From assembly GCA_011523385.1 (NCBI GenBank), contig WTGX01000008.1:1-60473 (forward strand): 60,473 bases of DNA. The letters are read 5' to 3'. Shown here in pieces: positions 16,376 to 32,939 of this stretch (positions are counted from its first letter, which is position 1; each line of letters opens with the position of its first letter). Made by a program: the position numbers and the translations under genes. Source of the stretch: Nitrospira sp. GTDB lineage: Bacteria > Nitrospirota > Nitrospiria > Nitrospirales > UBA8639. The notes under the pieces were generated by a model. It was not told the origin of the DNA. It saw only the letters and a program-made list of their open reading frames with translations, and searched no databases.

Positions 16376-17770
16376 CTATTCCAGGTCGTCGGCAATCTTT
16401 TTCAGGCGCCGGTCCAGCGCAAACCGGGTGAGCCCCAATTTTTGAGCGGCTAAACTTTTATTCTGTCCGCAGAGTTTCATCACTTCTTCGATAATCGCGA
16501 ATTCAGTTTCCGCCAACGTTTGCCGTCCCAGGACCATCTCCATCCGGAGAACCGATTCGTCGGTTTGGGTGGTGGATGAAACAATTTTCTTGGGTTCTTC
16601 ACGGAGTTCCCCGGACAAGTCCCCGGGTGTTAACGTTTTGCCGCGACAGAAGATCACGGCTCGTTCGATGATGTTTTCCAGTTCGCGAATGTTCCCGGGG
16701 TACGTGTAGCGCTCAAGCAAGGCTCGGGCCTCAGGGTCGATCTCGCCGATGTCTTTATTGAGATTCCGGCTATGATGAAACAGGCAGCGAAGGCTCAGGG
16801 AAAAAATGTCTTCAACGCGTTGTCTCAGGGGTGGGAGTGCCAACGACACGACGTTGAGCCGAAAAAACAGATCTTCCCGAAACGTCCCTTGATTCACTTC
16901 CTTTTTCAAATCCCGATTCGTCGCGGCAATCAGCCTGAAATCCACGGCAATGTCTTCCCGGCCACCCAGCCGTTTGAAGGAGCGTTCTTGAAGGACGCGA
17001 AGCAGCTTGGCTTGCATGGAAGGGTTCAAATCACCGATTTCATCCAGGAACAGCGTTCCGCCTTCGGCCTGCTCACAGAGTCCCGGTTTCCGCTGGGCGG
17101 CGCCGGTAAACGCCCCGCGTTCGTATCCGAACAGTTCGCTTTCAAACAATTCCTGGGGAATGGCCGTGCAATTGACGCCGACAAAAGGCGCGTCCCGTCG
17201 CGGGCCATTGTGATGCAGGACGCGGGCGATGAATTCCTTGCCCGTTCCGGTTTCACCCTGGAGCAGCACGGTGGTTTTGGCGTTCTGGCTCAATTCCTGG
17301 ACTTGGGCCATCAACTCTCGCATGGCGGGGCTGTCGGCAATAAGTTCTTTGAGTGCGTATCGACCGGCGCTGCTTTGATTTTCGAAACTGACCCGGCGAC
17401 GGAGGGTCAGATAATCGATCGCTCGTTCGACAACCGGACCGACACCGGACAGATCGACGCTTTTGATCAAAAAGTCATACGCTCCCAATCGCATGGCTTC
17501 GACGGCGTCTTCAATGGTCCCGTAGGCCGTCAAAAGGATAACGAGCGTGTCGGGGGCTTTGGGCCGGATATGCTTGAGGGTCTCGAGGCCGGTCATGCCC
17601 GACATTTTCAGGTCGAGCAGGATGATGTCGGGAATATCGTGGTCCAACCCTTTAAGAAGAGCTTCTCCGGAGTCGAAGCTTCGCACGTCGTGCCGGCCGC
17701 GGGTCAACCGGCGGGTGATCGACGAGCGAACGACTTCATCGTCATCCGTGACGAAAATTGACGCGCGCAT
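16376..17770 (-). CDS. Sigma-54-dependent response regulator (NtrC family)
   Basis: A 464-residue activator with the standard three parts. The receiver domain (1-120) has Asp53 as the phosphorylation site, the acidic pair Asp9-Asp10 and Lys103. The AAA+ domain (about 145-380) has Walker A GETGTGKE (172-179), the sigma-54 contact motif GAFTGA (219-224) and Walker [10 protein letters not shown] Fis-type helix-turn-helix (about 420-464) ends in [20 protein letters not shown]. It activates sigma-54 promoters once phosphorylated. It is the partner of the histidine kinase directly upstream (one base between genes). A sigma-54 promoter is visible at 24322, a possible but unproven target. Confidence 0.95.
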
Positions 17771-17771
17771 G

Positions 17772-19700
17772 TCAAGCCAGCATTGCGGGTTGATGTTGAA
17801 GGGTTAACGGCAGCCAGACGGAGATGACGGTGCCGGCTCCCACTTGACTGTCGGCCCGGATGTGCCCCCCATGCGTTTCAATGATGTTCCGGCAGATAGC
17901 CAGGCCCAGCCCGGTGCCCCGTCGTTTCCCCATCGTGAAAAAGGGATCGAAAATTTTGGGTAGATCCTCGGGACTGATGCCTTTGCCGTTGTCCTGAATG
18001 GTGGTGAGCAGTCCCCTGTGTCCGTCCCGTAATTCCTCTTGCGCTTCCACCCGGATTTCCCCGTCTTCTCCCAACGCCTCAACGGAATTTTGAATCGCGT
18101 TGAGAACCACTTGCTTGACTTGGTCACGATCGGCTTCGAGCGCAGGAAGGTCAGGGGGAAAGGATACGGTCAGATTGAAGAGTTTCCATCCGGCGGAATG
18201 ACGCACGAGGTCCAGGGTTTCCTCGACCAGCGCAGCCATCTCGAACGACCCGGGAACGATGTCACGAGGTCTGGCGTATTCGACAATCTGGGTCACGATC
18301 CGGTCCAGCCGCCTGGTTTCCTTGAGGATCGTTTGCAGGTCCTGTCGTTTGTCGTCTTCGGGCGAAAAGTCTTCCATGAGCAACGACGTGGTGGACCCGA
18401 TGCCCACGAGGGGATTGCGAATTTCGTGCGCGATGCCTGCGGCCACCTGTCCCAAGGTGGCGAGGCGTTCCGTCCGGCTGAGTTTTTCCTTCATTTGTTC
18501 AAACGCCGTGATATCGACGTTAAAGCCCTGATACAGAGAACTGCCGCCTTGCCCGTCCTGGATGGGGATGGCTCGGCTCAGGACCTTGCGCGTGGTTCCA
18601 TCGGGATGCACGAAACGGAAGACGCTTTCAAAGGAAACCTGCTTCGCCGTCGCGTTGGAGAACGCCTCATGCACTTGGGCACGGTCACCGGGGTGAATGG
18701 CGTCCCAGACACGTTCCGGGTCCAAGGGCTCGCCGGGGTCGTGTCCGGCCAATTTCCAATTCTCGCGGTTGCAAAAAATAATGCGGCCGTCCCTGGCAGT
18801 GAAAATACCGAACGGGGCGTGGTCCACAATACCGCGATATTTGGATTCCGAACTCGACAGGTCGATGTTCAGGTTGCGCAACGCGGCTTCCGATGTCTGG
18901 ATTTGGCTGATGAATTCCCGTATCTGCTGACCCATTTCGTGCATGACCCTGGTCAGGTCGCCGATTTCATCCCCCCGGTCCAGGACCTGCACGTCAGGAA
19001 CCGTCCCATCCGGCCGGTTCTCAACGGATTTGGCCAGGGAAACCAGGGGGCCGGCAATCGATTGTGCCAACAAGCGGAGCACGAACACCATGGGGATGAG
19101 CGCCAAAGACCCTCCACCGACGATCACAGTCAACAGAAAACCCCGATCATTCGACGTGCGTTCCAGGGTTTGCCGTAAGACTTCATCTTCCCGCTTGTCG
19201 AAACGGGCAATTTCCTCTCGAATGTCCAACATCAGTCTCCGTCCGGCTCCGGACTCGATGTACTGCAACGCTTCTTCCTCATGACCCAGCTTGGCCTGTT
19301 CAATCAGCCGGTCCTTATCTTCCAGTAACGTTTGAACCAGGGCTTGCGCTTTCAGGATTTCGGCGTGTTGCTCCCGATCATGTTCCACCATGTGGGCGAG
19401 GGTCCGTCCAACCTCCAGTACACGTTGTTTGGCGGCAACATAGGGATTCAGAAATTTCGGTTGGAGGGTCAGGACGAACCCGCGGAAACCCGTCTCCAAA
19501 TCGACGATCAGGCGCAAGTAATCGGCGGCCGTGGTTTGAACGTGGTACACTTGGTTCAGCCGGTCCTCATCACGGGAAAAGGTCTGGACGCTGTTGAAGG
19601 TGACAATGCTGAGGACGGCGAGCGTGAGGATCGGAATGACCGAAACCAGAAGGAGCTTTTTTTCAATCGGGAGGTTATTGAAGTGTCGAAAAATTCGCAT
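17772..19700 (-). CDS. Membrane sensor histidine kinase (CHASE3-HAMP-PAS-HisKA-HATPase)
   Basis: A 642-residue kinase. Transmembrane segments at about 16-34 and 185-208 enclose a CHASE3-like periplasmic sensor region. A HAMP stretch follows (about 208-260), then a PAS domain (about 280-395, VDHAPFGIFTARDGRIIFCNRE). HisKA has the phospho-acceptor His425 in AGIAHEIRNPL, and HATPase_c has DNGKGI and GTGLGLAI. Because the sensor is periplasmic and the PAS lacks an obvious haem Cys, the ligand is unknown. It pairs with the NtrC-type regulator at 16376. The layout resembles nitrogen, envelope-stress or exopolysaccharide kinases; none can be chosen. Confidence 0.93.
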   Translation of the reverse strand: MRIFRHFNNLPIEKKLLLVSVIPILTLAVLSIVTFNSVQTFSRDEDRLNQVYHVQTTAADYLRLIVDLETGFRGFVLTLQPKFLNPYVAAKQRVLEVGRTLAHMVEHDREQHAEILKAQALVQTLLEDKDRLIEQAKLGHEEEALQYIESGAGRRLMLDIREEIARFDKREDEVLRQTLERTSNDRGFLLTVIVGGGSLALIPMVFVLRLLAQSIAGPLVSLAKSVENRPDGTVPDVQVLDRGDEIGDLTRVMHEMGQQIREFISQIQTSEAALRNLNIDLSSSESKYRGIVDHAPFGIFTARDGRIIFCNRENWKLAGHDPGEPLDPERVWDAIHPGDRAQVHEAFSNATAKQVSFESVFRFVHPDGTTRKVLSRAIPIQDGQGGSSLYQGFNVDITAFEQMKEKLSRTERLATLGQVAAGIAHEIRNPLVGIGSTTSLLMEDFSPEDDKRQDLQTILKETRRLDRIVTQIVEYARPRDIVPGSFEMAALVEETLDLVRHSAGWKLFNLTVSFPPDLPALEADRDQVKQVVLNAIQNSVEALGEDGEIRVEAQEELRDGHRGLLTTIQDNGKGISPEDLPKIFDPFFTMGKRRGTGLGLAICRNIIETHGGHIRADSQVGAGTVISVWLPLTLQHQPAMLA

Positions 19701-19905
19701 CGTGAAACTCTGTTCGTATCTTAGGGTTGACTCGTGGGGGTGTCAAACCAGCGGTACAAACAGGACGGCTATCTATGTAAGCGCACCGGTGATGAAGCGT
19801 CCGTGAAAACCGGCTCTGGTGGGCCGGACCCGGATCAGGTATGATGCTTCCCCATCCCCCGCACGCGGAGCGAAGCGGGTTACATTGGAGAGGTGCATTG
19901 AACAT

Positions 19906-20484
19906 ATGACGAAACGAACAGTCGCGTTGTACGGGGTGATCTTTGTGATGGGGATTGTGGCGGGCTGGATGCTCAGTACGCAACGATTGCCCGTTGAGGG
20001 CATACCCGCGCGAACCGTGGCCGATTACCTCCACGGGGTCATCGAGGCCGACCGGACGTTTTATACGCAGCACATTGTCGAGCGAATGGAAGCCATGCTG
20101 ATCGTGAATGCGTCGGAGGACTGGATCAACGACAAAACCCTGCCGCTGCCCGCCCAGTTTCTGCGGGAATCGTCTCGAAGCCTGCGTTTGCGTGATGCGC
20201 CGTTTCGCTACCGGTTGGTCAGCCTCTGGCCGCTGAATCCCCAAAACGCGCCCGCTTCCGATCAGGAACGGAAGTTGCTGCAGCAGGTCGTCGAATTCGG
20301 GGAGGTTACGGAGGGAGAAGTCACGTTCAACGACAAACGCTACTTTCAGGCGATCTATCCCGACCGGGCCGTGAGCCGGGCCTGCGTGTCCTGTCACAAT
20401 GCGCACGTCGAGTCGCCGAAGCGCGATTTCAAACTCAACGACGTGATGGGAGGGCTGGTCATCGAAGTGCCCCTGGATAGTTAA
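19906..20484 (+). CDS. Haem-binding DUF3365 (Tll0287-like) protein
   Basis: A 192-residue protein from ATG 19906; GGAGAGG lies about 15 bases upstream, and codons before this do not fit the family. One N-terminal membrane anchor or signal (about 7-25). The periplasmic domain matches DUF3365: a single CVSCH haem-c site (Cys160, Cys163, His164) near the C-terminus after RYFQAIYPDRAVSRA. Related proteins (Tll0287) bind one haem with PAS-like folding and may sense redox. It precedes the NhaD gene on the same strand, separated by a repeat. Confidence 0.85.
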   Translation: MTKRTVALYGVIFVMGIVAGWMLSTQRLPVEGIPARTVADYLHGVIEADRTFYTQHIVERMEAMLIVNASEDWINDKTLPLPAQFLRESSRSLRLRDAPFRYRLVSLWPLNPQNAPASDQERKLLQQVVEFGEVTEGEVTFNDKRYFQAIYPDRAVSRACVSCHNAHVESPKRDFKLNDVMGGLVIEVPLDS

Positions 20485-20542
20485 AGGTGTGTAAAAAGTT
20501 CGCGTCCCTCGGCATGAACAATAGTCAAACATACCTCGAACC

Positions 20543-20649
20543 TGTCATTCTGAACGAAGTGAAGAATCTCTCCTTCAATGACCGGGCACTTCAACGACGA
20601 GATCCTTCGCTAGGTCCTTCACTTCGTTCAGGACAAGCTCAGGATGACG
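20543..20649. repeat. Interspersed repeat family A, long copy
   Basis: About 107 bases bounded by TGTCATTCTGA and TCAGGATGACG, which are inverted relative to each other, with nested inverted arms (GAACGAAGTGAAG / CTTCACTTCGTTC). The same architecture and internal text recur at 34210-34388; shorter pieces lie at 14779, 24660 and 43303. It is REP/MITE-like and could fold into a long hairpin. The open frame of nhaD runs through it, which would give a spurious N-terminal extension. Confidence 0.8.
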
Positions 20650-20678
20650 ACCTGGGCCAGGTTCGTCTCCTGGCGTGT

Positions 20679-22130
20679 ATGCGGCCGCCCTGCTTGAGGG
20701 ATTCCCGAACCATAACCAAGTTGTCCTTCAGCGCCGTGGCGTTGGTGCTCGGCTTGCCCGACCTCGTCTGGGGGACGGACGACTCGATCACCCACGTCGA
20801 TCTGACCGAGTCCACCGTCGGGTATTTCGCGCTGGGTATCTTTGTCCTGGCGTATGCGCTGGTCATGGCCGAGGAATTCACGCACCTCAGGAAATCCAAA
20901 CCCGTCATGTTGGCGGCGGGCATCATCTGGGCAATAGTGGCGTGGTCGTATCCCGGCAATGACTCGCATGCCGTTGAGCATGCGCTGCGTCACAACATTC
21001 TCGAATACGCGGAATTGATGTTATTTCTGCTTGCCGCCATGACGTACATCAACGCCATGGAAGAACGGCTGGTCTTCGAAAGCCTGCGGTCGTGGTTGGT
21101 GCGCAAGGGATTCACCTACCGCCAACTGTTCTGGCTCACGGGTACCCTGGCGTTCTTCATCTCGCCGGTGGCGGACAACCTGACGACGGCCTTGCTGATG
21201 TGCGCCGTGGTGCTGGCGGTCGGGGCGGACAATCCGCGGTTCGTCAGCCTGGCGTGTGTCAATATCGTGGTGGCGGCCAACGCGGGCGGGGCCTTCAGTC
21301 CCTTCGGCGACATCACGACGTTGATGGTATGGCAAAAAGGGATCGTGGGCTTCTTCACGTTCTTTCTCCTGTTCGTGCCCTCGGTGGTCAACTACGTGGT
21401 GCCGGCCGCGATCATGCACTTTGCCGTGCCGCAGGTCTCTCCGCCGCCGTCCGACGAAATCGTACGCATGAAGCGGGGCGCCCACATAATTATGCTCCTG
21501 TTCTTTTTCACGATTTGTACGGCCGTGAGTTTTCACAATTTCCTCCATCTCCCCCCCATGGTGGGCATGATGACCGGCCTGGCTTACCTGAAATTTTTCG
21601 GGTTTTACCTGCAGAGGACGCACAGTCGATACGCGGAACCGGGAACATGGAGTGAAAAGAAAGCTCAGGAAACGCTTGGCGACATGATCCCATTCGAAAT
21701 CTATCAACACGTGGCGAGGGCGGAATGGGATACCCTGCTGTTTTTCTACGGCGTCGTCCTGTGCGTGGGCGGGTTGGGCTTTCTCGGCTACCTCGCGCTG
21801 GTGGCTCAGGTGATGTATATCGACTGGGGACCCACGTTCGCGAATACGATGGTCGGGATTTTGTCCGCCATCGTGGACAACATTCCGGTGATGTTTGCCG
21901 TATTGACGATGCATCCCGACATGTCTCAAGGCCAATGGCTGTTGGTGACCCTCACGGCCGGAGTCGGGGGGAGCATGTTGTCGATCGGGTCGGCCGCCGG
22001 CGTGGCGTTGATGGGGCAGGCGCGCGGCAAATATACGTTCTTCAGTCATCTCAAATGGACCCCGGTGATCGCGCTCGGGTACGCGGCGAGCATCCTGGTC
22101 CATATGTGGATCAATTCGAGTCAATTTTGA
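20679..22130 (+). CDS. nhaD: Sodium:proton antiporter NhaD
   Basis: A 483-residue inner-membrane protein with about 11-12 hydrophobic segments. The NhaD signature is plain: AAGIIWAIVAWSYPG, HNILEYAELMLFLLAAMTYINAMEERLVF, FFISPVADNLTTALLMCAVVLAVG, and ANAGGAFSPFGDITTLMVWQKG. It exchanges Na+ (or Li+) for H+. ATG 20679 is chosen because the frame upstream is read through a repeat and does not encode NhaD. The N-terminus before the first helix may be a signal. Next to it is a SulP anion transporter; together they could keep a Na+ gradient for bicarbonate uptake, which is inference. Confidence 0.93.
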   Translation: MRPPCLRDSRTITKLSFSAVALVLGLPDLVWGTDDSITHVDLTESTVGYFALGIFVLAYALVMAEEFTHLRKSKPVMLAAGIIWAIVAWSYPGNDSHAVEHALRHNILEYAELMLFLLAAMTYINAMEERLVFESLRSWLVRKGFTYRQLFWLTGTLAFFISPVADNLTTALLMCAVVLAVGADNPRFVSLACVNIVVAANAGGAFSPFGDITTLMVWQKGIVGFFTFFLLFVPSVVNYVVPAAIMHFAVPQVSPPPSDEIVRMKRGAHIIMLLFFFTICTAVSFHNFLHLPPMVGMMTGLAYLKFFGFYLQRTHSRYAEPGTWSEKKAQETLGDMIPFEIYQHVARAEWDTLLFFYGVVLCVGGLGFLGYLALVAQVMYIDWGPTFANTMVGILSAIVDNIPVMFAVLTMHPDMSQGQWLLVTLTAGVGGSMLSIGSAAGVALMGQARGKYTFFSHLKWTPVIALGYAASILVHMWINSSQF

Positions 22131-22347
22131 GGCGCGGGCCGCTGGGAAGAAAACCCATTGCTCCCCGGACGCGTGCGGGCTACAATTCGGCGAACGACGA
22201 AGCAGAGGAGTGTAAACCGGAACACCGAACAATCCGAACGGCCGTTGAGAAAGTCCCATCCGCGCGCAGGCGGGAGGTTCGTTCAACGGATGTTTCAGGC
22301 ATGTAGGGTAGCTGGCTGTCGGCTGTCTGAGGCCGGTCACAGTACAA

Positions 22348-22397
22348 GCCGGTTGAGCATTCAGGAGCGCGACTCCCTGAATGGCAACCGGTTTTTT
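22348..22397 (+). terminator. Rho-independent terminator between nhaD and SulP gene
   Basis: A long hairpin with outer arms CCGGTTG (22349-22355) and CAACCGG (22385-22391) and inner arms CATTCAGG / CCTGAATG is followed directly by six T (22392-22397). It ends the nhaD transcript or acts as an attenuator upstream of the SulP gene, whose start is 34 bases further on. Confidence 0.7.
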
Positions 22398-22430
22398 GTG
22401 TCACGTATCGTCCACATGGGGGAGACGAGC

Positions 22431-24071
22431 ATGAACGCCGAGAAAGCAGACGTTCCGCGAGGTACGCTTGCCGGGTTACAGCAGAACTGGAAGGCCGACC
22501 TGCTGTCCGGATTCCTGGTTTTTCTGATTGCGCTGCCGTTGTGTCTCGGCATCGCCCTGGCCTGCGGGTATCCCGCCATCGCAGGTATCTTCACCGCCAT
22601 TATCGGCGGTATCCTGGCCACGTTCTTCAGTAATTCGGAATTGACGATCAAGGGCCCGGCCGCAGGGCTCATCGTCATCGCCATCGGTTGCGTGACGGAA
22701 TTCGGTTTCACCGGCGGGAAGGACCCCGCCGCCGACATTCAAGCGTACAGGCTGGCGCTTGGCGTGGGAGTGGCCGCGGGCATCATCCAAATCCTGTTCG
22801 GTGTGTTCCGTGCCGGCATCCTGGGCGAGTTTTTTCCGACCACGGCTATCCACGGGTTGTTGGCCTCCATCGGGGTCATCATCATTGCCAAGCAGTTCCC
22901 GGTGGTGATGGGGCTCAGCCCCGAGGGATCACCCCTGCAACTGTTGGCCAACATTCCGGCGTTCATCATGGAGATGAACCCCAAAATCGGCCTGATCGGG
23001 ATCGTGAGTCTCCTCATCGTATTCGGGTATCCGCTCATCAAAAATCCCAAACTGAAGGTCATTCCGGCACCGATGATCGTGTTGCTCGTCGCGGTGCCGC
23101 TGGGCATGTATTTCAATATCAGCCAGGACGGCACCTATACCTTCAACGGACAGACGTACGCGTTGGGCACCAAGTTCCTGGTGGACGTGCCGGCGAACAT
23201 GTTCAGTGCGCTTACGTTCCCGGATTTCTCGGGACTCACGACTACCATCGGCATCAAGTACGTGATCATGTTCGCCCTGATCGGGAGCCTGGAGTCGTTA
23301 CTCAGCGCAAAGGCCATCGACCAGATCGACCCGTGGAAACGGAAAACGGATTTGGACCGTGACATGCTGGCCGTTGGGGCCGGCAATACCTTGTCGGCCT
23401 TCGTGGGCGGGCTCCCGATGATTTCCGAAATCGTGCGGAGTAAAGCCAATATCGATAACGGGGCCAGGACGCGATTTGCCAACATGTTCCACGGCTCGTT
23501 TCTGCTGGTCTGCGTCGCGTTGATCCCGGGAGTTATCAACCAGATTCCCCTGGCGGCCCTGGGCGCTTTGCTGGTGTTTACCGGCTTTCGGTTGGCGTCG
23601 CCCCACGAGTTTCTCCATATGTATCATTTGGGGAAAGATCAGTTCATCGTATTCGTGTCCACCATCATCGGCGTGCTGGCCACGGACCTCCTGATGGGCA
23701 TTGGCATCGGCATCGCCGTCAAGATCGCGATCCACGTCTTCAACGGAGCTCCGATTCCCTCGTTTTTCAAATTGAACGCCGAGATCACGCAAGAGGACGA
23801 CACCTCGGCGACCATCGTGGTGCGGGAGTCCGCGATCTTCAGCACCTGGATCCCTTTGCGCAAACACCTGGACCGGTTGCTCCGGGAAGAGAAAACCGTC
23901 ACCTTGAACCTGGCCGGGACGAGACTCGTGGATCACACCGTGATGTCGAAACTCTACGAATGGGTCGGGGAATTCGAAGAAAAGGGCTGTGACCTGTTCA
24001 TCCGGGGGTTGTCCGAGCACCGGCCGATGTCCGACTCCATGGTGGCCGCGCACGTCAAACGCAAGGAGTAG
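22431..24071 (+). CDS. SulP family anion transporter (sulfate/bicarbonate permease)
   Basis: A 546-residue membrane protein from ATG 22431 (GGGGGAGA upstream); the longer open frame before it crosses the terminator. About 12-14 hydrophobic segments follow the SulP start KADLLSGFLVFLIALPLCLGIALACGYP; SELTIKGPAAGLIVIAIG carries the anion-site region. A C-terminal STAS domain (about 450-546) includes VTLNLAGTRLVDHTVM. SulP proteins move sulfate, bicarbonate (BicA) or other anions, often with Na+ or H+. Its neighbour NhaD and the DabAB locus 2 kb away favour bicarbonate, but substrate cannot be read from sequence. No carbonic anhydrase gene is adjacent. Confidence 0.92.
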   Translation: MNAEKADVPRGTLAGLQQNWKADLLSGFLVFLIALPLCLGIALACGYPAIAGIFTAIIGGILATFFSNSELTIKGPAAGLIVIAIGCVTEFGFTGGKDPAADIQAYRLALGVGVAAGIIQILFGVFRAGILGEFFPTTAIHGLLASIGVIIIAKQFPVVMGLSPEGSPLQLLANIPAFIMEMNPKIGLIGIVSLLIVFGYPLIKNPKLKVIPAPMIVLLVAVPLGMYFNISQDGTYTFNGQTYALGTKFLVDVPANMFSALTFPDFSGLTTTIGIKYVIMFALIGSLESLLSAKAIDQIDPWKRKTDLDRDMLAVGAGNTLSAFVGGLPMISEIVRSKANIDNGARTRFANMFHGSFLLVCVALIPGVINQIPLAALGALLVFTGFRLASPHEFLHMYHLGKDQFIVFVSTIIGVLATDLLMGIGIGIAVKIAIHVFNGAPIPSFFKLNAEITQEDDTSATIVVRESAIFSTWIPLRKHLDRLLREEKTVTLNLAGTRLVDHTVMSKLYEWVGEFEEKGCDLFIRGLSEHRPMSDSMVAAHVKRKE

Positions 24072-24092: not shown

Positions 24093-24140
24093 CCGTCATC
24101 TCCGACCCGATCGGGGATCCAGGGTCTTTGTCTTTTGCCG
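24093..24140. repeat. Interspersed repeat family B, copy 1
   Basis: CGTCATCTCCGACCCGATCG then GGGATCCAGGGTCTTTG. The centre is a short palindrome (CCCGATCGGG). The same text recurs at 24561 and 24721. It lies just after the SulP stop, with TAGCTACAAGCCGC before it, which belongs to the same repeat unit. Confidence 0.7.
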
Positions 24141-24321
24141 TAGTAAGTCGAATTTTAGCGAAGCGTAACACGACAATCCCAACTGGAATTCGTGCGATTC
24201 CGCACATCCGAGCACGTGCGCTCTTGCGTGTTCCCTCCCCATTACAGGCCGATCCGGAGCGTTAAATTTATAACGAATTGATTTTTCGACGATTATTCTG
24301 AACACGCCCTACCGTAAAATC

Positions 24322-24338
24322 TGGCACACCCTTTGCTT
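24322..24338 (+). promoter_or_regulatory. Sigma-54 promoter (-24/-12)
   Basis: TGGCACACCCTTTGCT has GG at 24323-24324 and GC at 24335-24336, exactly ten bases apart, with the flanking TGGCAC and TTGC elements of the sigma-54 consensus. It lies 42 bases upstream of a small gene with a strong ribosome-binding site (24380). An activator of the NtrC family would be needed; one is encoded at 16376. No upstream activator site was identified. Confidence 0.7.
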
Positions 24339-24379
24339 TACTACAAGACAGTGCTTGATCAAACCTTTGGAGGAATATC

Positions 24380-24535
24380 ATGAGTGAATTTACCATCCTG
24401 TACAAAAGCCTGCATTGCGAGCAAAGAGAACCGAAGAAAGCCGACAAAAACGAGTCGTCCTCCCAAGCGAAAAGTGAGGCTCAGTCCGGGTCGCCCGTCA
24501 ATCCCTTTCGGGCGTTAATAGCCAAGATTTTCTAA
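24380..24535 (+). CDS. Small 51-residue protein behind a sigma-54 promoter
   Basis: ATG 24380 is preceded by TTTGGAGGAATATC, a near-perfect ribosome-binding site. The product (starts MSEFTILYKSLHCEQREPKK, ends PFRALIAKIF) is hydrophilic and Lys/Glu/Ser-rich in its middle. It has a single Cys13 and a hydrophobic, amphipathic-looking C-terminus that might touch a membrane or a partner protein. No family is recognised. The combination of promoter, spacing and ribosome-binding site makes real expression likely. Downstream (24541-24800) are only repeats. It could also be a regulatory peptide; no evidence separates the options. Confidence 0.6.
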   Translation: MSEFTILYKSLHCEQREPKKADKNESSSQAKSEAQSGSPVNPFRALIAKIF

Positions 24536-24560: not shown

Positions 24561-24635
24561 GCATTCCCCACCGGGGATCCAGTGTCTTTTCTCTGGTAGT
24601 TGTAGCCGCGCCATCTCATGGCGCTTCATCCCTTC
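24561..24635. repeat. Interspersed repeat family B, copy 2
   Basis: CACCGGGGATCCAGTGTCTTTT followed by TTGTAGCCGCGCCATCTCATGGCGC-type sequence in two blocks: a GATC-centred half and a hairpin GCGCCAT-CTC-ATGGCGC (seven-base stem). It is less well conserved in the first block than copies 1 and 3. Confidence 0.65.
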
Positions 24636-24720: not shown

Positions 24721-24795
24721 TTCCGTCATCCCCGACCCGATCGGGGATCCAGGGTTTTTTGCATTCGTAGCCGCGCCATCTCATGGCGCTCTTCT
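24721..24795. repeat. Interspersed repeat family B, copy 3
   Basis: Near-identical to copy 1 in its first block (GACCCGATCGGGGATCCAGG) and to copy 2 in its second (GTAGCCGCGCCATCTCATGG then CGC). Two family B copies and one family A fragment lie within 250 bases. Confidence 0.7.
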
Positions 24796-24866: not shown

Positions 24867-25238
24867 CTAGCGAAACGAATTATCGAGGTCATTCTCGAGG
24901 GTAAAGACGATCATCCGTTCGCCGCTGTGTGTTTCGATGTCGGTGAACAGGCCGGTGATTTCGACTCCGGTGATGGCGGAAATCTGGCTGCAGAGGCGTT
25001 CCCGTCCTTGGGAGATGAGGTTCTGCCGCATGCGTTTGACCATGTCCACGCCCTCGGCGTTTTTGGCGAGTTGCCGTTCGGCTGGAGTCAGGACGCCCTT
25101 GAGGCGCACCACGACCATGTCGCGCAGGATGAACGCCTTGACCTCCGTGGGTCCGCGCCCCATAAATTCCTGTTCGAATTTGATCACGGCATTGCGGATG
25201 GCTGTTTCCGACTCGCCTTTGGTTAGTCCGTTCCTCAT
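24867..25238 (-). CDS. DUF2294 family protein
   Basis: About 124 residues from ATG 25238 (MRNGLTKGESETAIRNAVIKF). The frame stays open upstream and ATG 25346, preceded by GAAGAGGAAGAA, is a possible earlier start. DUF2294 features are clear: EFMGRGPTEVKAFILRDMVVVRLKGVLTPAER, then DMVKRMRQNLISQGRERLCSQISAITG, then a closing VEITGLFTDIETHSGERMIVFTL. The family is common in Firmicutes and is described only as a domain of unknown function. The gene reads toward the repeat cluster, and a strong terminator (25376) separates it from the lipoprotein gene upstream. Confidence 0.8.
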   Translation of the reverse strand: MRNGLTKGESETAIRNAVIKFEQEFMGRGPTEVKAFILRDMVVVRLKGVLTPAERQLAKNAEGVDMVKRMRQNLISQGRERLCSQISAITGVEITGLFTDIETHSGERMIVFTLENDLDNSFR

Positions 25239-25375
25239 GGTCAAGAGAGCTTTCGGCTGAGCAAAGACCTTGAGACCTCCTGTACGGGGCCCCTGAACTC
25301 GCAATGGTATAAGCAATTCCATGGGAGAGGTCAAGAAGAGTCCCATTTCTTCCTCTTCGCCGGTTGCGGATTTCC

Positions 25376-25422
25376 CGCAAAAAGAGAGAGGGAGACCGGG
25401 ACGTGATCCCGGTCTCCCTCTC
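25376..25422 (-). terminator. Rho-independent terminator of the lipoprotein gene
   Basis: A perfect 16-base-pair inverted repeat (25386-25401 with 25407-25422; arms GAGAGGGAGACCGGGA and its complement) has a five-base loop. On the minus strand it is followed by TCTTTTT. It ends the transcript of the gene at 25486. Confidence 0.85.
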
Positions 25423-25485
25423 GTGCCTGCCAGCCGAACGTTTTTTCTATGACGTCGGTTGGGCTTCTGATAGTCACTCGCTCCT

Positions 25486-25908
25486 TCATTTTTCCAGCAG
25501 AGCAATTTGTTTTTCATGCCAGACAATGTGTTCCCGAAGGTCCCGGACGTCTCCTCGCCACTGACTCAGGAGCCTTGTCCAGCTCTGGCGTTTCAATCCC
25601 TTGGGATCCCGATAGGAGTTCTTGATCATGTCCAGTCGGTCTTCCAGTTTTTGGATTTTTTGTTCAAGCATGGCCACTTTGTTCTGGTGTTGCTGAACGG
25701 CGGCCTTGTGAGAATTCGATATAACGGACCGCCGGGTGACAAACATGTTCTGGCGTTGCTGAACGGTGGCCTTGTGAGAATCGACGGATTGCTCCAGAGC
25801 CTTATCTGCGAAGGGTTCGCCGGAAACGGTTCCATTCGCAGCACATCCAGTGAGCATGAGTCCCACGCAAAGCATGACACTTGGAATCATAAAGGTTAAG
25901 GTTTTCAT
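25486..25908 (-). CDS. Coiled-coil lipoprotein of unknown function
   Basis: About 140 residues from ATG 25908, fixed by AAAGGAGGACGAC directly before it. A lipobox LTGC gives lipid attachment at Cys22. The mature part is helical and charged, with coiled-coil-like stretches (VAMLEQKIQKLEDRLDMIK; RDLREHIVWHEKQIALLEK). An internal duplication is visible: SHKATVQQRQN and SHKAAVQQHQN, about 26 codons apart, with matching DNA. Such proteins may sit at the outer membrane or bind peptidoglycan; no family is recognised. Its promoter lies in the AT-rich region 25925-26010. Confidence 0.7.
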   Translation of the reverse strand: MKTLTFMIPSVMLCVGLMLTGCAANGTVSGEPFADKALEQSVDSHKATVQQRQNMFVTRRSVISNSHKAAVQQHQNKVAMLEQKIQKLEDRLDMIKNSYRDPKGLKRQSWTRLLSQWRGDVRDLREHIVWHEKQIALLEK

Positions 25909-26357: not shown

Positions 26358-26693
26358 TTAGGATTCCGCTGATTCAAAATGGCCTTTTCTGAGAACCCCG
26401 ACGTCCGACACAAAGAGACTGCCGGAATGGCGTTCCAGGAACGGCTTAAGTCCCGAAAGGATGGGTTCGACCTTGTCTTCGGGAACGACAGTCAGGACCA
26501 TTTGCAGGCTGCTCTCATCATTGAACATGAGGTGCCCTTCATGGAAGCCGCTGTGACCTTTGCCCGACAGACTGCTGAAGATGGTGTAGCCACTGGCTTT
26601 TATCCGATCCAGCACTTCCGTCACGAAACTCAGGTGCTCGCCGTTAATAATGATCTTGATTTCCTTCATCGGGTGAAGCGTAATGGTACTCAT
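26358..26693 (-). CDS. PII-like regulatory protein of the Dab operon
   Basis: A 111-residue protein with a GAGGAGGA ribosome-binding site before ATG 26693. It has the ferredoxin-like PII fold pattern: KEIKIIINGEHLSFVTEVLDRIKASGYTIFSSLSGKGHSGFHEG, here given in part, then LMFNDESSLQMVLTVVPEDKVEPILSGLKPFLERHSG. The T-loop is short and its Tyr site is absent, so uridylylation as in GlnB is unlikely. Related PII-like proteins (SbtB, CPII) sit beside bicarbonate transporters and sense nucleotides or bicarbonate. It follows dabA by 29 bases on the same strand and probably tunes the transporter. Confidence 0.82.
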   Translation of the reverse strand: MSTITLHPMKEIKIIINGEHLSFVTEVLDRIKASGYTIFSSLSGKGHSGFHEGHLMFNDESSLQMVLTVVPEDKVEPILSGLKPFLERHSGSLFVSDVGVLRKGHFESAES

Positions 26694-26722
26694 GGTCTGC
26701 TATTCCTCCTCAACCTGATGGA

Positions 26723-29700
26723 TTACTGAATGCGTTGCCATTGTTCCAAAGAATGCTGATGAAAAAATTCCATAGTCACCGGATCCAATGCCACAAGATT
26801 GATCCATTGATTGCCGACGAGTCGTTTTAACACATCATGACGGGCAATAATCGCGCTGATTCGTTCCATAGGGGCTTCAATGATCACAAAGAGGCGCATG
26901 GGTTCGTGATAGGGAGTTTCAACGTCCAAGACCGTTTGGAGTGGTAGCCCGATGCAAAGATCACTTTGGGACCCATACATGACTCCGACGCGTCCGACCA
27001 CGTTGTGATAGACCTTGCTTCCGCTGCCGTATACGACGGGATCCACCGTCGAAAAATAATGTTCCATGTTGATCCAATTCGCGACGATCATGGGGGCGGT
27101 CATGATGATTTCCAGATATTTTCCCGTCGGATCCTGCCGGTGATCATACGAGTGCAAAAAGGTTCGACCTTCGAGATTGAGGCCGTGCGTCAAGCCACGC
27201 CGGCCGACGATAAAAGCCGTGTGCCGCGACAGTCCCCATTCCGGCCGGACTTGCGACCAATCAACGCTGCGTAGTTTCGTATGCGCTGTCGCATGATTCA
27301 GAGATTGCCCATTGTTTCCCTCCGGGAAGCGACTGAGCCGTTCAAGGCTGTTGCGCCTGCCGGCTTCTTCGAGGTCATGAATCAGTCTGTTCAAGTCTTT
27401 CCGGTGTGTCGCGGGAACGTCTTCCAGGTCAAACAGTTGCACCTCGTCCGTCGTGGTATCGTGTTGACCCGGAAGAAAATGCGTATCGGCAGGAATAGTA
27501 ATCCCTCTTTTGGCCAGTAATTGCCGGACTTGGCCTTTGTTGGCCATGGCAGCAAAGGCCCGGGCGTTGGAGACCCCGTGGTTTCCCCCGCAGGCCCCAC
27601 AGTCCAAGGCCGACTCATAGGGATTGTTGTCCGAGGTACTGGCATGACCACAAGCGAGCACTAACCTGGAAAACGTTTTCGTGAATCCTAAAATCCGAAG
27701 CGCGGTTTCGACATAATGCGCCTGTTCGGTTTTCGTAAATCCCCTTTGCGTGATTCGGTGCATCCGATTCGTCACGGCTCGTTTATGGACGCCATACTCC
27801 CCCATGAGTTGTTGAAGAAATTTTTCATGGTCTGCTTCAGTCCAATGTAACAGTCGATGGAGTTCCTGATCTTCTGTGTTGTCTATCGAAACCTCATTCA
27901 GTGCTTGCTTGCGAAGCCGTTCGACCTGGTCGTGGGAGACCGCGTTGCCCGGACGACCGAACCGTTCGATTAACATGCGATAGATAATGGCCCGATGTTC
28001 GGAGGCGACCATTTCCTCAGCCTCATCCTTTGGCAGCTTTTCAACGGTCAAAGTCGTGCCGATGGAAATGTCAAAATGCTCCTTCACCCAGGACGTCAGC
28101 CGTTGATACCACAACGGTGCCAACGTTTGACCGAATAACCTGAATCCAAAAAACCATCCTATGGCTTCAACCATCACGTATGGCGTGATGACGTTTTCCT
28201 TCAAATCATGCAGAAGGGTATGGCCGGTTTTGGCAAGTTGTTGTCGTTCCAGAAATTTGTCCGCAGCGTTGGCTTGGTAAGCGCGAGGCACTTCTTTGAT
28301 GATGTGTTTCGGTTTGAGCAGGACCGGGCATTGGTCGGTCTCATGTTCGCTTCCGAATTTCTCGAAACACAAGGGAACTCCGAAAAATCCCGCAAACCCG
28401 AATGTTTCATTGCCTCCCACTTCTTCAAGGTGTCTTCGAAATCCTTCGGAACGAACATCGATACAGAAGATGGCTTGCGTCAACGGACGTGATTCGGAAG
28501 GATGTTCCACCGACTCATCACTCTGACGAAGTCGTCGAATGTTCGGCGAAAAATCCTGAACAAAGTCCGTGACGAAACTGCGTTCAAGCGCGTGCAGCCA
28601 TAACGGACCGTGATGGGATTCTGGAAAACGGTCAACCCAATCGAGCAGGACTTCCAGGGTTTCCGAAGGACTTTCGATGAGATCCTTCGCGGAGCAATCA
28701 AGGCAACGGGCAAGATGGACAAGGATACAGACTTCGCGCTCTTTTGCCTGTTGTTGACGAACGGTTTGCCACGTGTGACTGGTTGCGACCCCCTGACGGT
28801 CCAACTCATCGATAGGGAGCGGTTCCCGTATGAAGAGAGAAAGATCAAGGTTAGCCACCACTTGCTCGGCCAGTCCCCTGGTGCGCCATTCCTTGTAGAG
28901 CCCGTAGCCGTTCGGATGGTCGCGCAAGAAAGATTGGATCGAAGTAAACGTGCCTGGGATGCCGAGCTTCGCTTCGCATGTACGAGCGACGAGTTCTCGT
29001 TCATAGAAGAGACGAATGGCTATGTACCTCACCAAATCGATGGGGAAGGCCTGTTGCCATTGGTGGTTCGATTGCTCGGATCGCCATTTGATGAAACCCG
29101 TCCATCCCGGCAATTGAGCCAAGTGCAAGGTGAAATAGTCTATCCACAGATCCTGAGGAATGGCCAATGTCTCTAAGCTCTCCCCAATGGCATCTGACGG
29201 GAGGTCCGGAAGGTTTCGGATTTTGGATTTCCAGCCCTGAATGCCGAACAACGGGCCGGTCCAGTCCTCTTGGGCCAACATTTTCCACCCATCGTAAAAC
29301 GTCTTGCTGCGACGAGGCATCGGCCACGGCGCGTGGCCTTCGTCGAGAAAACCACCACACCATTTGATGAGTTCCTGGTTGATCTGGTCTTGGATGCCCG
29401 TCCCGAGCGTGGCATCGCACCAATGGGCAAGAGTGTACTCCGACCCAAGCTCGTTTTCTTCACGGTCAGCGTGAAAGTTGAGTGAAAATTGTTGTTCCTG
29501 CGACCTGGAGAGATCTTGGAGTTTTTCACGCAGCCCGCTCACGTCGGTCTCGCTCAGCGAACGTTCTAACACGGCCGAGGCCACGTCAGGCTCGACGGTT
29601 CCGGTCCCATGGATGAAAATCGTCTCCAGGACGTCCAGGTGGGAAATCTTTCGATCTCCAATGACGACGCTCTCCTCTTGTGCTCTGGGCTTTAAGACTT

Positions 29701-29968
29701 CACGAATGGCTTCCGGGGAGATGCGACCTTGTTGAAAATAATTCCGGTATTCCCTATTGGGCAAATAGCCGTTCCCGCCGATAAATTTTCTGGCCTCCTC
29801 GATGGCTTCTTCGAAGGGTAAATGTTCCAGGCCATGGAGGGGATTATGGTGGATAAAAGTTTGCATGGGCCAGTAATGGGAAATGGTCTCGCTCGCCAGT
29901 TTGACAAGCGAACGCAATTCCATGCGCTGGGTATCTTGCGGTGCTACCGATTGTTTGACGTTTGCCAT
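26723..29968 (-). CDS. dabA: DabA inorganic-carbon accumulation subunit (DUF2309)
   Basis: A 1081-residue cytoplasmic, membrane-associated protein. DabA resembles beta-carbonic anhydrase and, with DabB, converts CO2 to bicarbonate vectorially using the proton gradient. The zinc site is intact: Cys502 and Asp504 in FCIDVRSEG, His775 in ACGHAS, Cys790 in DCGACGG. The spacing (C-x-D; H then C 15 residues on) equals that of the characterised Halothiobacillus protein. The N-terminus HYWPMQTFIHHNPLHGLEHL is a family hallmark. The length is on the long side for the family. It lies between the antiporter-like subunit (11 bases) and the PII-like gene. Confidence 0.95.
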   Translation of the reverse strand: MANVKQSVAPQDTQRMELRSLVKLASETISHYWPMQTFIHHNPLHGLEHLPFEEAIEEARKFIGGNGYLPNREYRNYFQQGRISPEAIREVLKPRAQEESVVIGDRKISHLDVLETIFIHGTGTVEPDVASAVLERSLSETDVSGLREKLQDLSRSQEQQFSLNFHADREENELGSEYTLAHWCDATLGTGIQDQINQELIKWCGGFLDEGHAPWPMPRRSKTFYDGWKMLAQEDWTGPLFGIQGWKSKIRNLPDLPSDAIGESLETLAIPQDLWIDYFTLHLAQLPGWTGFIKWRSEQSNHQWQQAFPIDLVRYIAIRLFYERELVARTCEAKLGIPGTFTSIQSFLRDHPNGYGLYKEWRTRGLAEQVVANLDLSLFIREPLPIDELDRQGVATSHTWQTVRQQQAKEREVCILVHLARCLDCSAKDLIESPSETLEVLLDWVDRFPESHHGPLWLHALERSFVTDFVQDFSPNIRRLRQSDESVEHPSESRPLTQAIFCIDVRSEGFRRHLEEVGGNETFGFAGFFGVPLCFEKFGSEHETDQCPVLLKPKHIIKEVPRAYQANAADKFLERQQLAKTGHTLLHDLKENVITPYVMVEAIGWFFGFRLFGQTLAPLWYQRLTSWVKEHFDISIGTTLTVEKLPKDEAEEMVASEHRAIIYRMLIERFGRPGNAVSHDQVERLRKQALNEVSIDNTEDQELHRLLHWTEADHEKFLQQLMGEYGVHKRAVTNRMHRITQRGFTKTEQAHYVETALRILGFTKTFSRLVLACGHASTSDNNPYESALDCGACGGNHGVSNARAFAAMANKGQVRQLLAKRGITIPADTHFLPGQHDTTTDEVQLFDLEDVPATHRKDLNRLIHDLEEAGRRNSLERLSRFPEGNNGQSLNHATAHTKLRSVDWSQVRPEWGLSRHTAFIVGRRGLTHGLNLEGRTFLHSYDHRQDPTGKYLEIIMTAPMIVANWINMEHYFSTVDPVVYGSGSKVYHNVVGRVGVMYGSQSDLCIGLPLQTVLDVETPYHEPMRLFVIIEAPMERISAIIARHDVLKRLVGNQWINLVALDPVTMEFFHQHSLEQWQRIQ

Positions 29969-29979
29969 GGTCGCTCTTT

Positions 29980-31224
29980 CTAATTGATCAATATACTAAA
30001 ACTTGCGCCGAAAATGATCAGGACCAGGGAGCAGATTTCGGCAACCCTCAAATCGGTATAGGGGATGTCCGATCGTGCTTTTCCAAAGAGTGTGTGGTGC
30101 AGCACATGTGAGAAATGCCAACTTCCAAACATCCAGACACCGACAAACAACAACGAAATGATGACTAAAGAGCCCCCCTGATTTTCCGTTGCCGGCATGG
30201 TCGTAATGCCGCCAAAGATTGGAATGATCGGAAGCAGTACGGCGATGCTGATCAAAAGACCCACTAACGTCCCGAGACGCGGCATGGGAGATGCCAGCCC
30301 GGGGAGATTGCCGATGGGGTGCAGGCCATACCGTTGTTGGACAAAGGCATAGGCGATTAACAGTCCGCTCATGACCAGCCCGATCGTGATCCCGAACGGG
30401 ACTCCCCATTCGGAAAAAGAAGAGAAGACGGTGGTCAGTCCCCACAAGAGCGCCGCTTGGACGATGGTGGCATAGGTGAGCAAAACGTGGATCTGGTTCT
30501 GCCCCAAACACTTCAGACACGCGTACAGCCCGCCCAATAAGGCCAGGAATGCGATGGCCACGTGTATTTCTGTTTCCACGGGAATCACAGTTTGCAGGTT
30601 GTGGATTTCGACCAATCCGAGGGATAAGAACGTTACCGTCCATACCCCGGAAAGCATTCCTCGAGCGGAGCCGACCAGGGAGGTGAAGAGAACGTGAAAC
30701 GGAGGCAGTGGCACGAGCGTAACCGCAAGAAAAAGGCCGGCTGATCCGTTAAAGGAGTCCCCACCCCAGAAGGAAACGCTGATGAGAACAATGGCAATAG
30801 CCGCCTGTGCAAGGCCAATGGTTTTGCGCGTGGCGGAAAGTTTCGACCGGTAGAGAGAAAAGGCTGCAAAAGCGAACAAGCCAATGAGAAAATACAGGTT
30901 GACGGGTGCGGGGCCGCACAGTGCGGCAAGACACAGTCCCAACACCATCAGGGGTTCGTCCGGAAGCGTTGAAGAACGTTTGGAACCCCATTGTCCGAGG
31001 ACGACACAAAACGTCGAAAAGATGACGGCCGCTGACAGATAAATCGCCATTCGAGCGGTGTCGAATGCGGCGTGCATGTAGAGGATCGTTCCGGCTTCCC
31101 ACCCGATACAGAGCATGGTTAAGACCTGAAAGGTCGAATGCGAAATGCTGCAGGTTCGGTTGAGCAGCCAGAGAACAAGGGGGACGAGAACGGCCAGCAA
31201 CGTTATGGAAAACTCTGAAGCCAT
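29980..31224 (-). CDS. Degenerate antiporter-like membrane subunit in the Dab operon
   Basis: A 414-residue protein from ATG 31224 (GGAAGG about 17 bases upstream; the frame opens further up inside dabB's end). About 12 hydrophobic segments give a Mrp/NuoL/M-type topology, but the key motifs are worn. Where DabB has KSAQFPLHVWLPD this protein has LVPLPPFHVLFTS, so the TM7 lysine is a leucine; QNDIKK is QNQIHV. It is therefore unlikely to pump protons by itself. Sitting exactly between dabB and dabA, it may be a third subunit of the complex. No standard name is known to me. Confidence 0.8.
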   Translation of the reverse strand: MASEFSITLLAVLVPLVLWLLNRTCSISHSTFQVLTMLCIGWEAGTILYMHAAFDTARMAIYLSAAVIFSTFCVVLGQWGSKRSSTLPDEPLMVLGLCLAALCGPAPVNLYFLIGLFAFAAFSLYRSKLSATRKTIGLAQAAIAIVLISVSFWGGDSFNGSAGLFLAVTLVPLPPFHVLFTSLVGSARGMLSGVWTVTFLSLGLVEIHNLQTVIPVETEIHVAIAFLALLGGLYACLKCLGQNQIHVLLTYATIVQAALLWGLTTVFSSFSEWGVPFGITIGLVMSGLLIAYAFVQQRYGLHPIGNLPGLASPMPRLGTLVGLLISIAVLLPIIPIFGGITTMPATENQGGSLVIISLLFVGVWMFGSWHFSHVLHHTLFGKARSDIPYTDLRVAEICSLVLIIFGASFSILIN

Positions 31225-31241
31225 TGTGGAGCGACCTTCCG

Positions 31242-32939
31242 TTAATACCGGTGTCCGAATTTTTGTGCCAATTGGAAGAGCATGTTGCCCCACCTCACAT
31301 AGACCTGATCGACGTACAACCGGTTGATCAGAAGAATATAGAGGCGTTGTTGCAATGCAAGAATCCTATCCGGGTTGATAATCGTGTGTCCTTTCGCATC
31401 GGTATAGACGTAGAACCAGCCGAAGAGAATAAAGATGGTGGCCAGCAGGATCATCGTATCGAATACCACAGGATTCAAGGCCGCGGCCACGAAAAATGCT
31501 TCTGCCACACCCGGTTCAGGATATAGAAAGTGCGTGAATTGTTCGCCTGCCCAGAGGTACGTGAACCCAATGAGAAACAACGTGCCGATCATGGCACCGG
31601 ATACCTTCCAGGAAGCTACGTCATGCAGTCGAGATAAACTGAAAATGGCTTGGGAGGCGGTGACCCAACTGAAAAAGAGGAAAATGACTGCTCCATGTGC
31701 GTCCTGCAGCGGAACTTCCAACAGGCCGTGTGCGACCATCAAAATAAACAGTGGCATGATTAAGGTAATGATCAATCCCGTTACCCAGCTTGCCTGGGTG
31801 GGAAGCCTGGCGGGTTTGTGAGTTAACGAAGAAGGGAATTTCGGTTCATGTCTGGCGCTGTGAATCACGGTCCCGGCGCTTAAGAAGAGTGAGGCTTTGA
31901 ACAGCCCGTGCGCAATCAGATGAAAAATGGCCAGGGCAAAAGCTCCGAGGCCGCATTCCATGATCATGTATCCCATTTGTCCCATCGTGGAAAACCCCAG
32001 TGTTTTCTTGATGTCGTTTTGGACGAGCATCATCGAGGCCCCCAAAAGGACGGTGGCGGCACCGACAATGAACACGATATGAAGGACGTCGGGCGAAAGG
32101 GCATACAACGGTGCGAGTCGATTAAGAAGGAATCCTCCCGCGTTCACAATACCGGCATGCATGAGTGCCGAAACCGGGGTTGGAGAGTCCATGGTATCCG
32201 GCAACCAGACATGGAGAGGAAACTGAGCCGATTTGGCCATGGCTCCGATGAAAATGAGCAACGTAATGACGGACGTGGCCGTGACGTCGAGCATATTTCC
32301 GGGCAGCAGTGAAATCACGTGGGCTTGTTCGGAGGCTCGCTGGAAGAGCTCGGCAAATTCGAGCGTGCCGAAATAGTGATACGTCAGGACAAGGCCGCAG
32401 AGGAACGCGACGTCTCCGACCCGGTGCACGATGAACGTTTTGAACGCGTTCTGATAGGCCGGCACGTGTGAAAAATTAAACGCAAGAATCAGGTACAGGG
32501 CCCAACTCAACAACTGCCAGAAGACAAACAGCATTAGGAGGTTCGGACTGGAAACGAGAGAGAGGATGACAAAGGTTATGAAGCCGAGTAACGCGAAGAA
32601 GCGGGCATAGCCGGAATCACCTCGGAGATACCGAACGGAAAATACGTGAATCACGGTGCTGACGCTGGTGATCAGGACCATCATCACGGCCGTGAGCCGG
32701 TCAACCAGCATGCCGAACGTGAAAAACGAGTAACCATCATCCTGGAGCGGCCAGAGGGTCACCCGAAAAGGCTCGCCCGAACTGACGGAGTACAACGTGA
32801 CAATGGAGAGGATGCCGGCGCCGACCGTGGCGCTGATTCCTATGGTGACCACATACGAGGCGAACCGTTTACCGAGAACGCTGATCACTAACCCGGCAAA
32901 CAACGGAAGAAGGGGAATGAGGATCGCTGTCGTCGTCAT
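31242..32939 (-). CDS. dabB: DabB, NuoL-like proton channel subunit
   Basis: A 565-residue polytopic protein of the proton-conducting membrane family (complex I NuoL/MrpA). It keeps the motif MAKSAQFPLHVWLPDTMDSP, with the TM7 lysine, then ALMHAGIVNAGGFLL and VQNDIKKTLGFSTMGQMGY. It supplies protons or Na+ to drive CO2 hydration by DabA. It is the first gene of a four-gene operon read leftwards: dabB, antiporter-like subunit, dabA, PII-like. The start at ATG 32939 lies 254 bases from the divergent LysR gene, with the shared control region between them. Confidence 0.9.
   Translation of the reverse strand: MTTTAILIPLLPLFAGLVISVLGKRFASYVVTIGISATVGAGILSIVTLYSVSSGEPFRVTLWPLQDDGYSFFTFGMLVDRLTAVMMVLITSVSTVIHVFSVRYLRGDSGYARFFALLGFITFVILSLVSSPNLLMLFVFWQLLSWALYLILAFNFSHVPAYQNAFKTFIVHRVGDVAFLCGLVLTYHYFGTLEFAELFQRASEQAHVISLLPGNMLDVTATSVITLLIFIGAMAKSAQFPLHVWLPDTMDSPTPVSALMHAGIVNAGGFLLNRLAPLYALSPDVLHIVFIVGAATVLLGASMMLVQNDIKKTLGFSTMGQMGYMIMECGLGAFALAIFHLIAHGLFKASLFLSAGTVIHSARHEPKFPSSLTHKPARLPTQASWVTGLIITLIMPLFILMVAHGLLEVPLQDAHGAVIFLFFSWVTASQAIFSLSRLHDVASWKVSGAMIGTLFLIGFTYLWAGEQFTHFLYPEPGVAEAFFVAAALNPVVFDTMILLATIFILFGWFYVYTDAKGHTIINPDRILALQQRLYILLINRLYVDQVYVRWGNMLFQLAQKFGHRY

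Follow-up and report, generated by a model that had tools for sequence, protein, structure and literature searches.

A conserved 51-codon gene with a sigma-54 promoter among inorganic-carbon transporter genes of Nitrospirales

Introduction

A short open frame in a 60,473-nucleotide contig of Nitrospira sp. (WTGX01000008.1, assembly GCA_011523385.1; this whole stretch is called the window below) may bear on the sensing and regulation of inorganic-carbon uptake in nitrite oxidisers that use the reductive TCA cycle. A first-pass annotation had described there a 51-codon gene with a sigma-54 promoter and a strong ribosome-binding site, whose product resembles no known family and which might answer to an NtrC-type regulator encoded in the same window. 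A recent review asks what carbon-toolkit genes outside the Calvin cycle do and how they are expressed (PMC10880623), and the open-licence papers that we searched held no description of sigma-54 control of bicarbonate transport. The locus offers a candidate regulator, a DNA site and an output gene.

The named relatives of the window are Nitrospira and Nitrospirales MAGs, including bin75 and sponge-type bins, from which we infer that it belongs to the GTDB genus bin75. This genus has been named Candidatus Nitrosymbion and consists mostly of sponge-associated nitrite oxidisers (PMC11812461).

Results

Coding constraint on the small gene

The frame occupies positions 24380–24535 of the forward strand, from an ATG at 24380 to a TAA at 24533–24535, and would encode a small protein of 51 amino acids. 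The ribosome-binding site GGAGG (24369–24373, forward strand) lies 6 nt from the ATG and is kept in relatives. A protein search of 97 related genomes yielded intact homologues in 11 of the 14 genomes of the same genus, with 71–80% identity, and further copies in G014 and G024, which belong to other genera; when 235 genomes of the order were searched with a profile, G019 was the sole credible addition. Outside the genus the gene is found in these three genomes, from two sister genera, and the three genus members that do not carry it are G001, G007 and G009. All 15 homologous copies, in 14 genomes and three genera, have an intact frame with identical ends, the gene being present as first described; in G006 the gene is duplicated in tandem, and a separate promoter precedes each copy. 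Weak order-wide profile matches beyond the three genera were dropped, most of them being frames interrupted by stops or matches in mid-gene, and no diverged small gene was found when the surroundings of MpsC/DabA in g9 (L138) and g5 (L143) were searched.

Over 12 genus sequences, pN/pS of the 51-codon frame is 0.25 overall, 0.10 for residues 1–15, 0.43 for the linker and 0.12 for residues 41–51, indicating purifying selection on the sequence of the small protein that is strongest at both ends. The coding constraint in relatives on which the first-pass annotation had staked its gene is thus present, and the 51-codon frame is confirmed as a real, conserved protein-coding gene with a predicted translated product. 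A leader-peptide role was ruled out, since the next gene lies in either orientation among relatives, mostly hundreds of bases off.

The predicted product, which starts MSEFTILYKSLHCEQ and ends NPFRALIAKIF, has two conserved helical ends with a variable polar linker between them. Across genera the N-end keeps the motif M-[SA]-x-F-x-[IVL]-L-[YF]-x-x-[LM]-H and the C-end the motif P-x-x-x-L-x-[SA]-K-[IL]-F-stop, and the linker varies in length between genera, in frame, with both ends retained. An AlphaFold2 model has helices at residues 3–12 and 42–50 and a linker pLDDT below 50, at a mean pLDDT of 63, which is low confidence; the two ends have hydrophobic moments that for the most part do not stand out. 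As had been suspected, no family match was obtained in Pfam, NCBIfam, PHROGs or PDB sequences, and with respect to these the 51-residue protein is a new family. No viral relative of it was found.

Promoter architecture

The sigma-54 −24/−12 element TGGCACACCCTTTGC lies at 24322–24336 on the forward strand, as do the other promoter features, and has the exact GG-N10-GC spacing reported for it; the transcription start is predicted near 24348. Aligned upstream regions of the three genera contain four conserved blocks, namely GTGCGATTTCGC(T/A)C, GTGCGTTTTTGC 24 bp further on, the IHF-like YAANNNNTTGATW and the −24/−12 element. The two activator dyads and the IHF-like site are absent from the first-pass annotation. 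In the window, candidate activator dyad 1 (GTGCGATTCCGCAC, consensus GWGCGATTTCGCWC) is located at 24192–24205, 130 bp before the −24 element; candidate site 2 (GTGCGCTCTTGC, consensus GTGCGTTTTTGC) at 24216–24227, exactly 24 bp after site 1 and 106 bp ahead of the −24 element; and the IHF-like site (TAACGAATTGATT, an exact fit to the consensus YAANNNNTTGATW) at 24271–24283. Column identities, computed over 14 promoters from the three genera, are 0.95, 0.96 and 0.82 for these sites and 0.91 for the −24/−12 element, with 0.56–0.66 in the flanks and spacers and 0.74 in the leader.

The 24-bp spacing of the dyads is invariant (15 of 15 copies), and 13 of the 15 have the IHF-like site, with at most one mismatch, some 50 bp ahead of the −24 element. 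The −24/−12 element is conserved in all copies bar that of G003 (L050), whose spacer is 2 nt too long. Each genus genome has the dyad pair once, only before the small gene, and G006 has it twice, with its two gene copies; these tandem duplicates (L067:9362 and 10667) each have the dyads, the IHF-like site and the −24/−12 element.

Taken alone, the −24/−12 match is not beyond chance: with at most one mismatch, the pattern has 4 matches in the window against 4.7 expected, and genome-wide 172 matches against 251 for the reversed control pattern. It is significant because it is conserved (0.91 versus 0.56–0.66 in the flanks). The genome encodes a single-copy rpoN (PF04552 match, E 2.8e-59) as well as IHF/HU-family genes. 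With its core conserved over 14 promoters, RpoN encoded, and homologous frames preceded by a conserved −24/−12 element found in three genera, the proposal of a sigma-54 promoter holds.

Palindromes of the GATCGGGGATCCAG type are repeated in intergenic DNA at 24100–24130, 24570–24590 and 24725–24760, and likewise downstream of the small gene in relatives.

Gene neighbourhood

Across the genus, the small gene comes after genes for the NtrC-type regulator, the CHASE3-HAMP-PAS kinase, the Tll0287-like haem protein, the NhaD-like antiporter and SulP, in that order; beyond it usually lie MpsC, the PII-like protein, DabA, the NuoN-like protein and DabB. Identified by Pfam matches and, except for the first one listed here, by synteny, these neighbours are, on the forward strand, a Tll0287-like protein with a CVSCH haem motif (19819–20484), which accompanies the kinase and regulator in other genera and is a possible redox or gas accessory of the kinase; an NhaD-like Na+/H+ antiporter (CitMHS, 20487–22130); and, directly upstream of the small gene, a BicA-like SulP anion transporter (22158–24071), whose start codon is likely near 22420. 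On the reverse strand follow an MpsC-family (DUF2294) protein (24867–25526) and the inorganic-carbon uptake cluster of PII-like protein (26358–26693), DabA, NuoN-like protein and DabB (26358–32939). Inorganic carbon is the substrate transported by SulP/BicA, by DabA/DabB (MpsAB) and by their partners (PMC8115632; PMC6689103).

This placement among inorganic-carbon transporter genes, which the first reading of the window did not mention, extends beyond the genus. The small gene is again behind SulP and ahead of DabA in G019 and G024, and in G014 it adjoins MpsC and DabA and follows SMC, not SulP. DabA thus neighbours it in three genera, where MpsC is also near it, and SulP and MpsC do so in most cases.

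A sister genus has two DabA types, of about 1010 and 1080 residues, neighbouring and opposing each other (L064:10800-17469).

Candidate activator

The NtrC-type response regulator (receiver, sigma-54 AAA+ and Fis HTH; 16376–17770, reverse strand) is one of seven true enhancer-binding proteins encoded in the genome and is our proposed activator, on the basis of Pfam matches, synteny and orthologue co-occurrence. Its partner histidine kinase (CHASE3, HAMP, PAS, HisKA and HATPase by Pfam; 17772–19700, reverse strand) is 88–90% identical and syntenic in the genus. Every one of the 14 genomes with the small gene also has an orthologue of the regulator, at 90–93% identity in the genus members and 65–81% in the three outside genomes; the orthologue is absent in G001, G007 and G009 (best match about 41–43%), all of which are without the small gene. 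The link between regulator and small gene that had been suggested from their common window is thereby borne out by synteny in the genus and by co-occurrence.

The co-occurrence profile is not exclusive to this regulator. Across five genomes, its reciprocal best hits are in G014 and G019 only, and a second enhancer-binding protein, L084 on contig C4, has the same pattern, being matched reciprocally in these two genomes but not in G001, G007 or G009; in this comparison, these two proteins are the ones whose profile is clean. It is because of synteny that the regulator at 16376–17770 is favoured over L084. It is probably the activator of the small gene, and its binding to the dyads is predicted from sequence. 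It should be noted that in many members of the family the regulator occurs while the small gene or the exact dyad pair is lacking, and that in G014, G019 and G024 the small gene is not adjacent to the kinase and regulator.

Matching promoters in related genomes

A composite scan for a dyad 70–190 bp before a −24/−12 site, with reversed-sequence controls, was applied to relatives. Three g9 genomes, G027, G021 and G029, have a regulator orthologue with an adjacent 43% paralogue and no small gene; here promoters with the layout −131/−107 or −155/−131 stand before a SulP gene and before a run of two micro-ORFs, Tll0287, SulP and an antiporter. In G027 and G029, a gene for an LCIB_C_CA-type carbonic anhydrase has a single dyad at about −107. 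The reversed-sequence controls gave 0–2 matches per locus and none in these g9 loci. The paralogous regulator, which has a different HTH, may be the one that reads the g9 dyads.

The 24-bp spacing is also found in dyad promoters of other genera, and dyad/sigma-54 promoters lie within the kinase/regulator clusters of five other-genus genomes. Weaker matches in G024 and G017 are located between the kinase and Tll0287 genes, beside the regulator orthologue and before a micro-ORF of 18 to 19 residues. Since these promoters were chosen after looking, they count as support and not as an independent test.

Several minor observations concern the same loci. Hydrophobic micro-ORFs of 18 residues (MEGFTLILLITWAVLSRF) and 24 residues (MEHVPLIAILTIIVIALMNRLGLD) stand behind dyad/sigma-54 promoters upstream of Tll0287 (L182:3904-3962, L183:5628-5686, L187:2682-2740 and L140:6719, all on the reverse strand). 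The 18-residue frame differs between g9 genomes only at third codon positions, and a relative recurs in G024. LCIB/C-type carbonic anhydrase genes with a sigma-54 site and a dyad are at L187:3376-4404 and L182:4609-5568, both on the reverse strand, and the reading frame is apparently split in two in G027. Single dyad matches in G012, G016 and G019 had no sigma-54 site and were treated as chance or unrelated repeats; in G016, three copies of GAGCGATTTCGCAC lie exactly 82 bp apart (L184:5085, 5167 and 5249), with no sigma-54 site found nearby.

Discussion

On balance, we favour the explanation that the small gene, with its own sigma-54 promoter, is controlled by a two-component/sigma-54 system that serves inorganic-carbon uptake, with a product probably acting on the neighbouring transporters. 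The kinase would phosphorylate the response regulator, which would then bind the two dyads 24 bp apart; IHF would bend the promoter DNA, and sigma-54 polymerase would transcribe a short, probably single-gene message. The regulon would concern the import of dissolved inorganic carbon together with the Na+ gradient that powers it. The small gene would be signal-induced, and the signal is probably carbon supply; a role in the response to carbon supply is suggested because, in relatives, the activator sites recur before genes for bicarbonate transporters and carbonic anhydrase. The product, in which a disordered linker would connect two short helices, would most likely bind and tune SulP or DabA/DabB. 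The location of the gene and the helix-linker-helix form predicted for its product agree best with transporter tuning, and action on a transporter, taken as a claim of its own, is a tentative one.

A broader model can be offered as a conjecture that falls somewhat short of an even chance: in marine Nitrospirales, a sigma-54 two-component system reading 24-bp-spaced GWGCGATTTCGCWC dyads governs inorganic-carbon acquisition, and its outputs include new small proteins, the 51-residue one and the 18-residue membrane-type one, that tune bicarbonate transporters. With this locus, nitrifiers from sponges and other marine habitats gain a small-protein family that family databases lack, together with a candidate class of regulated micro-proteins.

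With known NtrC-family regulators and their sigma-54 promoters the system shares the receiver-AAA+-Fis architecture, paired upstream sites (here at 106–130 bp) and a −24/−12 element; to our knowledge, neither the GWGCGATTTCGCWC dyad nor the association with SulP, DabA and LCIB has been described for this family. PII-like proteins of the SbtB/CPII type are small soluble regulators of bicarbonate transporters. The 51-residue protein resembles them in being small and encoded beside inorganic-carbon transporters, and tuning of these is likewise proposed for it; it has no sequence or predicted-fold relation to them and no folded domain. SgrT and AcrZ are signal-induced small proteins acting on membrane transporters. 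The same is proposed here, with no homology to either and with a target that is itself a proposal.

The small protein could belong to the same regulon and serve general membrane or Na+/pH homeostasis instead of a carbon transporter. NhaD and a CHASE3 kinase are also at the locus, other genera keep the kinase and regulator with Tll0287 and often an antiporter and not with the long DabA cluster, and SMC replaces SulP before the small gene in G014. However, the same kind of promoter precedes an LCIB-type carbonic anhydrase and SulP, and DabA, usually with MpsC, stays close to the small gene in three genera, so we regard a homeostatic role as unlikely, if the most serious of the alternatives.

It is less likely still that another enhancer-binding protein, such as L084, is the activator and that the nearby two-component pair is coincidental. 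The matching presence and absence of L084 would fit this, as would a recognition helix of the regulator that is nearly unchanged in g9 genomes without the exact dyad pair; set against these are the synteny of regulator, kinase and small gene throughout the genus and the dyad/sigma-54 promoters inside the clusters of five other-genus genomes.

The nearest known promoter logic is that of QseE/QseF (GlrK/GlrR) and glmY in Escherichia coli, where a two-component enhancer-binding regulator, IHF and sigma-54 likewise drive one very short gene near the kinase and regulator genes (PMC6075780). That gene is a small non-coding RNA, unrelated to the 51-residue protein predicted here; its activator sites are TGT-N12-ACA, unlike the present dyads, and it serves cell-envelope precursor control, unlike the present system (PMC6075780). 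A transcript that is mainly a regulatory RNA, with a secondary frame, is nonetheless improbable in our case, given the low pN/pS, the invariant start and stop, the in-frame changes of linker length between genera, the conserved ribosome-binding site and the lack of an Rfam match at the gene. A chance open frame behind a chance −24/−12 match, which the absence of genome-wide enrichment of consensus matches might suggest, is already refuted by all of the conservation data.
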